DNA of 33,446 nucleotides from a virus, in the IMG/VR virus record IMGVR_UViG_3300022592_000019, positions 1 through 33,446 of that record, one strand, 5' to 3'. This document shows positions 1,659 to 26,938 of the stretch, in pieces (the stretch's first letter is position 1; each line of letters starts with the position of its first letter). Both the position numbers and the translations under genes were made by a program. Under the pieces are notes generated by a model. That model did not search any database. It was not told the origin of the DNA and was given only the letters and a program-made list of their open reading frames with translations.

Positions 1659-3868
1659 TATGACTCGCCCTCTTCTGCTTTTAAGTTAGCTGATATTATA
1701 ACTGCTTTTACTGGATCAGTAATTACTACTTCAAAAACACGATCTCTGGCCCAACCTAGTCTACGCCAAATTGCACGATTTTTAAATTGTCCTGTTTGAC
1801 CAATAGAAACCCAATGTTCGTTTGACCATGTTGAGCCACCATCGTTTGACCAACGTAACATCGCTTGTGGATCAGCACCAATTGTTATAATGTGATTAGT
1901 GCCTGCAATTGCTAATCCTGCTACACCAATACCTGCTACTGCGTTGGTTGGTGAGAATTCATTTTGTGAATAACCAGTCAATCCAACACCTGGCTGAAAT
2001 TGAATCTGTAGTTCTTGTAAATATTGGCGTTGTAAGTCAGTCACAATATGTGGCGCACGTCTTACTCTGCGAATCTCATTACCATTGTCTGTATAGTTAT
2101 TAGGGTCTAGCAAGTAGATAATTCCATTTGCATAATCCCCAACCAATACTTCACCATTAAATACCGCACAACAGTTACCACGATGACGATGAAATACGTT
2201 CATGTTATCTACAGACAACCACTTATGCCACATTGTTGTAGTTGCATCATATACCCACGTTAAATCTAATGTAGGGAACGTAATAACATAACATTCATGG
2301 CCTTCTAGTTGATATGTCCATGCCAAAGCATCGTCTACATATTGACCAACTAAAGTTTGTTCTACAGCATGATTAGATATTCTAGTAGGCGTATATCCGT
2401 TCATTTGCATAATCATTGCTTGACCACGATTGTTTCGTGACAAGTAAGCAAACGAATTACCTAATCTATAAACAGATGCTTTTGCTGCAATACCATGTTG
2501 TGTAGAAGTGCCAGGAATACGTTGGAAAGCAAACGGATAAGTCCCTACATCAGTCCACACTTCAGATGAAGTTTCACCTAATAAATATACTTCACGATGA
2601 TCTACAATCAAAGCTACTAGATTATCTGGTGCGCCATCTTTAGATGAAAAACTTAATCCCTGACTAATTGGTGAAAGCGGATTAGATGCGCCCCATTGTT
2701 GTGTATTAGGATTGTTGTAAACAAAGTAGTTATCCACAATATCTACTGATGTAGCACCACTAAAAGCACCATCTGTTGTGGGTAGCACACTAAAATTTAG
2801 CGCATATAGTGTTTCAGAGCCAACAGACTGTGTATTGTTTAATACATAGTTACCTGTGCCACCAGCTCCTGTACCAAACGTTAAAGTTAAAGTTAATCCT
2901 GTACCATTACCGCTTGATGATGTTGATGCTGGGTTTGCTGGATTTGATGTATATGCCCCAGAGTTTGTTCTTGTTAATCCTGTAACTGCACCACTACCAC
3001 CTATGCTTGAAACTGTGTAAGTAGCTGGAGTAGTTCCATAAATACCGCCTAATACAGTAACAGTATCATTGACTGCGTAATTTGTACCTGCCGTAGCAAT
3101 GGTTTGACTTAATACTGTACCGCTACCTAATGATGTAACAATTGTTCCTGCTGTTACGTTAGCACCTTGAATTGTTTGTCCTGGATATATTGTTCCAGTT
3201 GGAGTAGTAGAAACTGTTAAAATATTTCCATTAATTGAACCTGTAAATTTTGCTGCAACCGCAGCAGAGTTCATAATTTCAGAGCCTTCAGACTGTGAAA
3301 TATTAATCGTATATGTACCAACTCCGCCTGTTGTTCCACTTGTTTGAGCAGTAATAACTGTTTCAGCAACTAACCCCACACCAAACAATGATTGATCTGG
3401 TGAAATTGTTCCACTTTTAATTTCGCTAACTGTCAACGTTGTATTTGATGGCCCAATTGATCCAATAAATACCGCAGAAGCTGGATTAGAGATGCGCCAT
3501 GTATAACGATATTGGCCATCAACAATGTAAACGTTTAGACCATTGTCAATAATGCCTACACGACCTGTACTGGTGTTTAATTGGCCTACCATTGTAGGAA
3601 CAAAAGTAGAGTTCATGACATAAACATAAGAACCTACGACAGCAACCATGTAGTTGTTGCCTGACAAAGTTCTCATGCCACGCACTTCTTCTTTGTTTTG
3701 AAATACGATTTGTGTAGTAAGGCCAGGCGTTGGATATAGTGAAACTACACCACGTTGACCTGGTTGTTTTAGTGGATCAATCTCTGGGCGAAAGTTAATA
3801 CATTCCTGCCCATCTTGATAGATAGAAGGTGCTTCATACGATGGCCCAACGAAACCAAAGTCTGCCAT
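1658..3868 (-). CDS. P22 gp10-like tail accessory (DNA stabilisation) protein
   Basis: This 736-residue protein has an N-terminus (GPSYEAPSIYQDGQECINFRPE) and beta-propeller-like repeats (for example MVAVVGSYVYVM near 74-85, LNVYIVDGQYRYTW near 111-124, and ADYANGIIYLLDP-type strands later) typical of the P22 gp10 hub that closes the portal and carries the tail needle. It is much longer than P22 gp10 (about 470 residues). The excess is one block at about 134-357 made of two copies of a 'GSI-x-GN-LTV ... GTI-x-PGQ-I-x-G' beta module, the second of them split by another insert. Outside this block the gp10 core continues to a charged C-terminus. It lies four genes after the gp4-like protein, the same relative order as in P22. 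Confidence 0.85.
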   Translation of the reverse strand: MADFGFVGPSYEAPSIYQDGQECINFRPEIDPLKQPGQRGVVSLYPTPGLTTQIVFQNKEEVRGMRTLSGNNYMVAVVGSYVYVMNSTFVPTMVGQLNTSTGRVGIIDNGLNVYIVDGQYRYTWRISNPASAVFIGSIGPSNTTLTVSEIKSGTISPDQSLFGVGLVAETVITAQTSGTTGGVGTYTINISQSEGSEIMNSAAVAAKFTGSINGNILTVSTTPTGTIYPGQTIQGANVTAGTIVTSLGSGTVLSQTIATAGTNYAVNDTVTVLGGIYGTTPATYTVSSIGGSGAVTGLTRTNSGAYTSNPANPASTSSSGNGTGLTLTLTFGTGAGGTGNYVLNNTQSVGSETLYALNFSVLPTTDGAFSGATSVDIVDNYFVYNNPNTQQWGASNPLSPISQGLSFSSKDGAPDNLVALIVDHREVYLLGETSSEVWTDVGTYPFAFQRIPGTSTQHGIAAKASVYRLGNSFAYLSRNNRGQAMIMQMNGYTPTRISNHAVEQTLVGQYVDDALAWTYQLEGHECYVITFPTLDLTWVYDATTTMWHKWLSVDNMNVFHRHRGNCCAVFNGEVLVGDYANGIIYLLDPNNYTDNGNEIRRVRRAPHIVTDLQRQYLQELQIQFQPGVGLTGYSQNEFSPTNAVAGIGVAGLAIAGTNHIITIGADPQAMLRWSNDGGSTWSNEHWVSIGQTGQFKNRAIWRRLGWARDRVFEVVITDPVKAVIISANLKAEEGES

Positions 3869-18063: not shown

Positions 18064-18263
18064 ACAAATATTCCCTTTTCGTCTATGCTGTCGTTAATAA
18101 AATCTGCTGCCTCATGCAATGTATTGACTAGGATCGTTTCGTCTTCAATAAATGATGTTAGTTCAATGTATCCATCATAATCTACTGTAGCGATAGCAAG
18201 CGTGAAAGAATCTTCATCCTTTTCCGCTTCATATGACATCACTATTTTAATTAGCTGTGTCAT
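18054..18263 (-). CDS. Small acidic protein of unknown function
   Basis: This 69-residue acidic protein (MTQLIKIVMSYEAEKDEDSFTLAIATVDYDGYIEL ...) is predicted mostly beta then helical. It overlaps the GroES-like gene by 17 bases and the basic 46-residue gene by 10 bases. The start could also be the internal Met9, because neither has a clear ribosome site. No family is recognised. Confidence 0.55.
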   Translation of the reverse strand: MTQLIKIVMSYEAEKDEDSFTLAIATVDYDGYIELTSFIEDETILVNTLHEAADFINDSIDEKGIFVCH

Positions 18264-18558
18264 CTTGTACGAAAACTACATCCTGCCATGACATGACTAA
18301 ATGTCTTTCGTTATTAATAAAACACTCTTGATATTTTAAATATTCTTCTTTTGAATCTCTACCCATTGTGCCAAAGCGTACGAACTGACCCACCTTTACT
18401 GGCATATCTTCACGTTTAGAGTTGTCAATTTTTCTGCCTGGTCCAACTGCAATGACAGTCCCCATGTTATCGGCCTCTTCCATTATGACTTCAATGATAG
18501 AGCTTTTAACACGAGGAATAGGCTTAACTAATATCTTATCGCCTAATGGTTTAATCAT
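18247..18558 (-). CDS. GroES-like co-chaperonin (Cpn10)
   Basis: This 103-residue protein begins MIKPLGDKILVKPIPRVKSS, which matches the GroES first strand (PLGD-x-x-LVKP). A mobile-loop region with an Ile/Val-rich tip follows at about 20-27, then the signature MGTVIAVGPG at 32-41 and PVKVGQFVRFG at 53-63, and a C-terminal strand near 88-98. GroES has about 97 residues, so the length fits a full Cpn10 ring subunit. Phage co-chaperonins such as T4 gp31 pair with host GroEL to fold the coat protein, and P22-type coat is a known GroEL/ES client. It sits in the accessory block before terminase. Host-derived or phage-evolved origin cannot be told here. Confidence 0.85.
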   Translation of the reverse strand: MIKPLGDKILVKPIPRVKSSIIEVIMEEADNMGTVIAVGPGRKIDNSKREDMPVKVGQFVRFGTMGRDSKEEYLKYQECFINNERHLVMSWQDVVFVQDDTAN

Positions 18559-25289: not shown

Positions 25290-25838
25290 ATGTTAAAATT
25301 ATCCATTGATAAAAACATTATTGATCACGCAATCTGGCTAGTAAATAACGTAAACTATGGTCAGCGTGGTAACGCAGATGGTGACAGAAAACAACAAGTG
25401 CGTGGCATGATTGGTCAATGTATGGTAATGGATGTTCTGGGACATGACCTACCGCAGATAACACATGAACATGATGGCGGTATAGACATCAATTACAATG
25501 GTCTGACAATAGATGTAAAGACAATGGGTAGGAACTGTGATCCCAGGCCAGAATATGTAAATAACTTGTTTGGCCTACAATCACACTTTGATGTGGATGC
25601 TTATATATTTTGCAGCATTAATCGTAAAGACATCACACTAACAATATGTGGATGGATTGCCAAACGTGAGTTTTTAAAGCTGGCAGAATTTACGCCAAAA
25701 GATGGATATAGAACTAGATCAGATGGTACTAGGTTTCAAACCAAAGCTGACTTGTATGAGCTGAAAAACAATATGTTGAATGATATCAACTCTATTGATG
25801 AACTAAAGACAGGATTAAATAATGAAGCTAAAAACTAA
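25290..25838 (+). CDS. PD-(D/E)XK-like nuclease (putative)
   Basis: This 182-residue protein has a core 'GGIDINYNGLTIDVKTMGR' with the acidic residue Asp66 followed by the pair Asp75-x-Lys77, the hallmark spacing of PD-(D/E)XK nucleases. A conserved Gln pair (41-46) precedes it and 'DVDAYIFCSIN' follows as the next strand. In a recombination operon such a nuclease could resect DNA ends for the annealing protein. The family assignment is from motif only. The upstream ribosome site is weak. Confidence 0.55.
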   Translation: MLKLSIDKNIIDHAIWLVNNVNYGQRGNADGDRKQQVRGMIGQCMVMDVLGHDLPQITHEHDGGIDINYNGLTIDVKTMGRNCDPRPEYVNNLFGLQSHFDVDAYIFCSINRKDITLTICGWIAKREFLKLAEFTPKDGYRTRSDGTRFQTKADLYELKNNMLNDINSIDELKTGLNNEAKN

Positions 25839-25932
25839 ACTTGCATTGATGTTTATTACTATCCCACTATGGATGCCGATTGCACTTATGATATTGTTTG
25901 CAATAGACTTTTGGGATGCTGTAATAGATTAG
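25822..25932 (+). CDS. 36-residue membrane peptide
   Basis: The ATG overlaps the end of the nuclease gene. The product (MKLKTKLALMFITIPLWMPI ... FAIDFWDAVID) has two short hydrophobic stretches with a basic start, consistent with an inner-membrane peptide. It is the last gene of the plus-strand arm. Confidence 0.55.
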   Translation: MKLKTKLALMFITIPLWMPIALMILFAIDFWDAVID

Positions 25933-26029
25933 ATTGGCGCAGATTTGATAGTTATTACTTGTAGCGCAGAAAGCCGAAAAACTCGCTACTTACTATATCC
26001 TCTGATGTCGGCTTAACCGCCAGTAAAGA
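25933..26029. other. Non-coding gap between converging arms, with possible RNA pseudoknot
   Basis: No gene is seen in these 97 bases. Two interleaved stems are visible: GTAGCG (25961-25966) with CGCTAC (25984-25989), and AAGCCGA (25971-25977) with TCGGCTT (26008-26014). The first strand of the second stem lies inside the loop of the first, so both can form together as an H-type pseudoknot, on either strand. The direct repeat GCGCAGA occurs at 25937 and 25964. No T run supports classic termination. Confidence 0.45.
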
Positions 26030-26101
26030 TTAACGATTGCAAACGTACATTGTTACTTCAAAGCCAAAACGCATTTCTGTAGCTGCTGGTTTAGTCCACA
26101 T
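26030..26101 (-). CDS. pqqA: PqqA, pyrroloquinoline quinone precursor peptide
   Basis: Twenty-four codons from the ATG at 26101 to a stop give a 23-residue peptide starting MWTKPAATEMRFGFEV. It carries the invariant Glu15 and Tyr19 spaced as E-x3-Y and ends in Arg23. Length, start (MW-x-KPA) and motif match bacterial PqqA; the Klebsiella peptide is also 23 residues with Glu15 and Tyr19. In the host pathway PqqE, with PqqD, links these two side chains and later enzymes release the PQQ cofactor. AGGAC lies six bases before the ATG, and a hairpin sits just above it. The gene is the last minus-strand cistron after the phosphoesterase. The tail residue Cys21 is unusual. No other pqq gene is present, so it would feed host enzymes. 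Confidence 0.9.
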   Translation of the reverse strand: MWTKPAATEMRFGFEVTMYVCNR

Positions 26102-26118
26102 GATTTAGTCCTCAATAT

Positions 26119-26141
26119 ATACAAAGCAAAATTGCTTGTAT
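26119..26141 (-). promoter_or_regulatory. Leader hairpin upstream of pqqA
   Basis: The inverted repeat ATACAA(A)GCAA / TTGCTTGTAT with one bulge and a two-base turn lies directly before the pqqA ribosome site on the minus strand. It may set translation efficiency or mark an mRNA processing point between the phosphoesterase and pqqA. Confidence 0.45.
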
Positions 26142-26185
26142 GTAATAATCTGCTAAATATTAAAGACAAGCTATAGAGAAAATCA

Positions 26186-26938
26186 TTAAAAGTTTGCTAC
26201 AATAGTAGATAGCGGAACGGCAACTTCATTAAAAGAGCCATCTTTAACATCGTTTAATACATACAGCCCTCTAAAATGATTATTGCCTTGCGCTCCCAAA
26301 TACGCTTCATCGTGTTCATAACACGAACCACAGATAATTGCACATAATGGCTTACCTGATGCTGTCTTACCATAAGCTACTTGACGGCCTTGTTGATGGC
26401 CAGCGAACGCACTCATGTGTAGTTTGTTAAGCATTTGTTGAGCTGTACCGATTGGTCTACCCATTAACCCAGATGTGAAGTAGTGAGAGAAGGCCACACC
26501 TTCTATAGTGACAACATCAAGAAACGGATAAACTTCAAAATCCTGGTACGGAAGATCGTCAATAGAAATAAGACCATCTAGTTTTCTATCGTTGTTAATC
26601 GCTGTCAAAATTCTCTGTTCATGGTTACCCAAAGTAAGCACCATGCGTGGTTTGTATTGCTTGTCTTTATTCTTTTTGGCTTTTGCATTAAATTCATACA
26701 AAGGTGTCAGCAAAGCATCTATAGCTTCACGAGCAGCTTGCACGTCTTTCTGATATGAACGACCCTCAAAAGATTTTTTACCTACATCATAGGAGCTTAA
26801 ACTCTCCATGTCCGAAAAATCGCCTATGCACACCACACAATTTGGTTTCTCTTTAAGAATAAAGTTTCCTATGGAAGTAAGAAAACTGAAATCTACGCCA
26901 TCTTTAGCCTGGACATCAGGCAGAACTATAATTTTCAT
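26186..26938 (-). CDS. Calcineurin-like metallophosphoesterase
   Basis: This 250-residue protein has the metallophosphoesterase order: Asp8-x-Gln10 (PDVQ in place of D-x-H), GD with Asp40, GNHE at 104-107, His152 (FSHYF) and GHQ at 180-182. These metals and residues cleave phosphodiesters or phosphomonoesters, and phage members of this family are common, with mostly unknown targets. The first-motif histidine is replaced by Gln, which occurs in some active phage members. It sits between the lysis genes and pqqA on the same strand, with a short leader. Confidence 0.8.
   Translation of the reverse strand: MKIIVLPDVQAKDGVDFSFLTSIGNFILKEKPNCVVCIGDFSDMESLSSYDVGKKSFEGRSYQKDVQAAREAIDALLTPLYEFNAKAKKNKDKQYKPRMVLTLGNHEQRILTAINNDRKLDGLISIDDLPYQDFEVYPFLDVVTIEGVAFSHYFTSGLMGRPIGTAQQMLNKLHMSAFAGHQQGRQVAYGKTASGKPLCAIICGSCYEHDEAYLGAQGNNHFRGLYVLNDVKDGSFNEVAVPLSTIVANF

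Follow-up and report, generated by a model that had tools for sequence, protein, structure and literature searches.

A gene for the PQQ precursor peptide PqqA in phages of methylotrophic bacteria

The DNA analysed here, referred to as the window, is a virus record of 33,446 bases. It carries P22-type terminase, portal and coat genes together with genes for a head-closure protein, endolysin, spanin, tail fibre, Sak-type annealing protein and SSB, and is thus a phage. On its minus strand, a 23-codon open reading frame at 26030-26101 runs from ATG to TAA and encodes MWTKPAATEMRFGFEVTMYVCNR, preceded by the Shine-Dalgarno sequence GAGGA 7 nt before the ATG (26109-26113, minus strand). The peptide contains the Glu-x3-Tyr pair that PqqE cross-links, as E15-V-T-M-Y19, and ends in Arg. 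It passes both curated PqqA models with about twice the required score: Pfam PF08042 at 42.4 bits (E 6.3e-11, cut-off 21.1) and the NCBIfam equivalog TIGR02107 at 45.1 bits (E 5.8e-12, cut-off 20). No match to the peptide was found in solved structures, and PHROGs has no PqqA family. The pqqA gene follows a metallophosphoesterase gene on the same strand (26186-26938, minus; PHROG 221 E 1.1e-42, Pfam PF00149) and faces a convergent plus-strand gene (25290-25838). A preliminary description had proposed that this frame is a phage-encoded PqqA missed by annotation, in which only the substrate and not the enzymes of PQQ synthesis is encoded, and that it either boosts PQQ supply in the infected host or diverts PqqD and PqqE; the identification is confirmed.

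To determine how common such genes are, we compared the peptide by tblastn with 50,697 phage records, of which 12 matched. Nine of these are isolate genomes of Methylophilales phages, namely Venkman, P19250A, MEP301, MEP401, MEP402 and four Melnitz variants. They represent four lineages with differing gene neighbourhoods around pqqA: Venkman and P19250A share a genus-level cluster (PMC8163748), MEP401/402 are listed as Zobellviridae and Melnitz as Kyanoviridae. A tenth match is an environmental circular genome, ctXG6705. The remaining two, CAKLQF020000010.1 and CAKLQH020000055.1 (locus L244), are named 'Acinetobacter phage MD-2021a' but hold bacterial chromosome, with ppk and the complete pqqBCDE set beside the match in L244, and are probably mislabelled. 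In the isolate records the frame is unannotated or, in Melnitz, overlain by a hypothetical protein called on the opposite strand (2961-3056 of the fetched Melnitz locus); ctXG6705 has the same wrong-strand call (2067-2195 of its locus). Over 200 IMG/VR contigs also carry pqqA, counts that are lower bounds and not a prevalence. Of 49 further pqqA-bearing viral records, 23 hit one terminase family alone. Other Methylophilales phages are listed in the taxonomy (MEP431-434, phiMB624-A and Venkman EXVC038S), and we do not claim that all methylophages carry the gene. Searches with Methylobacterium-type PqqA gave only weak Melnitz matches among phages.

We next asked whether the viral peptides are constrained. 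In 84 viral copies retrieved with a pattern that fixed only codons 1-14, codon 15 is Glu in 84/84 (GAA and GAG) and codon 19 is Tyr in 84/84 (TAC 46, TAT 38). Over codons 15-23, pN/pS is 0.08 among 74 distinct sequences, whereas residues 4, 6, 7, 8 and 21 vary. An SD-like core (AGGA, GGAG or GAGG) lies within 20 nt upstream in 202 of 208 viral copies. The frame therefore has the marks of a translated, selected peptide with the cross-linked pair intact. Viral peptides are identical or nearly identical to host PqqA, several of them identical, although the host loci for this comparison were fetched with a pattern that fixed Lys4. Both observations had been proposed as tests in the preliminary description, and both came out in its favour. 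The same evidence makes it unlikely that the peptide is a decoy that occupies PqqD/PqqE or is turned into a dead-end product, thereby lowering host PQQ and shutting down methanol oxidation. A substrate encoded without its enzymes would indeed compete with host PqqA, but a decoy should diverge at the reactive residues, and the viral peptides keep these and the whole central core.

Interestingly, the gene is accessory in the window's own lineage. Relatives with 96% identical phosphoesterase (loci L326-L328) have both flanks but no pqqA, whereas a relative with 88% identity (L329) has it at the same place together with about 95 nt of conserved downstream DNA. The closest relatives of this phage lack the cassette, so it is dispensable there. 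The cassette, comprising box, promoter, reading frame and downstream segment, is inserted after the phosphoesterase stop codon at 25925-26190 (ends approximate). Only 2 of 40 longer records with the window's terminase type carry pqqA, and 2 of 28 with its phosphoesterase, but these relatives include fragments and probably phages of other hosts and do not give a prevalence among methylophages. The downstream segment (25931-26029, minus strand) is 74-94% identical in 12 other fetched loci and absent with pqqA from the closest relatives. It contains AAGCCGA...TCGGCTT, yet neither it nor the mRNA showed an unusual fold relative to shuffled sequence (z 0.75 for the mRNA and 0.15 for the segment), and no Rfam family was found around pqqA; a riboswitch or structured RNA is therefore not supported. 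The patchy occurrence, and the many host copies available for capture, would also be compatible with neutral cargo, that is, a frequently captured host fragment without benefit to the phage. However, the purifying selection, the recurrence in unrelated phages and the retention of promoter and ribosome-binding site render this improbable.

Inspection of the upstream regions revealed a conserved promoter element. Expectation-maximization on 139 non-redundant viral upstream regions yielded a motif, TMATGRTTTTCYKTA, of 16 bits that an estimated 88% of regions carry; shuffled regions gave 7-9 bits. At a score of 14 the motif precedes 126 of 209 viral pqqA copies within 150 nt and occurs elsewhere in those loci at 0.12 per 10 kb of strand, several of the latter lying just beyond 150 nt. 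In the window, this 'PQQ box' reads TTAATGATTTTCTCTAT (26173-26189, minus strand). The match (minus strand, 26190) scores 20.1 bits, the best in the window, and none of 300 simulated windows reached 20. A probable -10 hexamer, GATTAT (26145-26150, minus strand), lies 38 nt after the first T of the box and is assigned by position and resemblance. Anchored on the motif, the -10 in phage pqqA promoters peaks at an offset of 37-38 nt. A 37-nt offset places the box at about -41, a position that would be typical of activators overlapping the -35; the box is thus a probable binding site of a host activator, a role inferred from position only. P19250A, MEP301 and Melnitz have strong boxes, whereas in MEP401/402, Venkman and ctXG6705 the box is weak or absent, and ctXG6705 has a consensus-like TTGACT/TATACT instead. 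We also considered that the box might reflect the start of a divergent gene, but although the TCATGG variant reads as a reverse start codon, the commoner TAATGA does not, and the fixed -10 spacing argues for a promoter element.

Notably, the same element occurs in the hosts. Upstream of pqqA in Methylophilaceae the motif is a palindrome, CTMATGANNNTCATKAG, about 120-135 nt before the ATG. In 12 whole methylotroph genomes, examined with sequences and a pattern independent of the viral training set, the strict palindrome occurs 0-4 times each and 17 times in all, whereas the reversed control pattern never occurs. Of the 17 sites, 12 are within 200 nt upstream of a pqqA and two more precede pqqB, the one in Methylophilus methylotrophus having been checked as PqqB (E 1e-114). 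Of the other three, two precede a glycine-zipper-like protein (locus L455, position 2003) and a YjbQ-family protein (locus L456, position 2035), both possible further regulon members, and one is an unassigned site in Methylophaga. Host promoters show the distal palindrome 60 nt and a proximal half-site 37 nt before the -10; phages have one box at that proximal position, keeping the left half and the spacing, with a degenerate right half. We considered whether the DNA box itself might be the important part, with phage copies titrating the host PQQ regulator and the frame only carried along. Despite the strong conservation of the box in many phages, this seems remote: the frame is under strong purifying selection and has a ribosome-binding site nearly everywhere, the box keeps fixed promoter spacing to a -10, and some phages retain the frame without a strong box. 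Use of the host box also speaks against a decoy, which would be switched on exactly when the host wants PQQ.

The phage records contain the substrate gene but not the modifying enzymes. In 49 longer pqqA-bearing viral records we found no PqqE (0/49) and no PqqD (0/49), and one PQQ-dependent alcohol dehydrogenase (1/49; 608 bits), at 34049-35731 of a 72-kb contig. By contrast, all 12 methylotroph genomes tested have pqqE over the cut-off and 1-12 pqqA copies. Twelve copies are scattered in the genome of OM43 LSUCC0135, of about 2.1 Mb, with one pqqE over cut-off. Stand-alone 23-codon pqqA units, many behind the same palindromic box, are common in these genomes, and scattered extra copies are also known in Methylovorus MP688 (Ge et al. 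2015, cited in PMC9851590 and PMC6520949). The hosts multiply pqqA but hardly pqqE. In a Hyphomicrobium PQQ producer, five pqqA copies are differently expressed, and added PqqA peptide is converted to PQQ by cell extract of Gluconobacter (PMC9851590).

Taken together, these findings suggest, with a probability of roughly 0.75, that phages of Methylophilales carry a small transcription unit, made of a host-type PQQ box, a -10, a ribosome-binding site and pqqA, that tops up the consumable substrate of PQQ synthesis. On infection, the host's own PQQ-regulon activator and RNA polymerase would transcribe the unit, and the peptide would enter the host PqqD/PqqE/PqqB/PqqC pathway. Each PqqA is consumed to make one PQQ, which is established for PqqA but inferred here, whereas the enzymes act catalytically and are already present, so that only the consumable part needs supplying. 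PQQ supply for methanol dehydrogenase, the host's energy source, could thereby be kept or raised while host genes are shut off. Expression, processing and benefit to the phage are inferred, and the marginal benefit of one more copy in hosts with up to 12 is unproved. Of the two mechanisms raised in the preliminary description, boosted supply is favoured and diversion disfavoured. Modification by PqqE for a purpose other than PQQ, for example as a signal or anti-host peptide, is not excluded but doubtful, given the near identity to host PqqA and the membership in the host PQQ regulon by promoter. Somewhat more likely than not, Methylophilales phages have repeatedly joined this regulon through a mobile cassette of about 250 bp, exchanged with the scattered pqqA genes of their hosts, so that infection adds the one consumable input of cofactor synthesis under host sensing. 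In that case pqqA would be a hallmark gene of methylophages and a sequence tag for predicting methylotrophic hosts, and would link viral infection directly to methanol oxidation in one of the main groups of aquatic methanol oxidisers.

A phage PqqA had been reported once before. Coutinho et al. 2020 (PMC7678222) described PqqA in one large Lake Baikal virus population, VP_266, assigned to Methylophilaceae hosts and also encoding methanol dehydrogenase, and proposed it as an auxiliary metabolic gene; they stated that P19250A encodes none of those genes, but P19250A does carry pqqA. A 2026 reservoir study lists pqqA among viral genes (PMC13188868). By word search, the isolate papers examined do not mention phage pqqA: in PMC9004378 PQQ appears only as a medium component, and PMC8024684, PMC8163748 and PMC10580990 do not mention PQQ. 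A literature search, limited to open-licence papers, for a described pqqA operator in Methylophilaceae gave no relevant title. The breadth of viral pqqA and the promoter box shared by phage and host appear new.

Beyond the pqqA cassette, the window encodes a chaperonin-10 (GroES-like) protein at 18247-18558 (Pfam PF00166, E 9e-10). Its GC skew changes sign at about 22000 and 26000, where gene orientation switches, with a block of plus-strand genes (22.8-25.8 kb) between minus-strand blocks.
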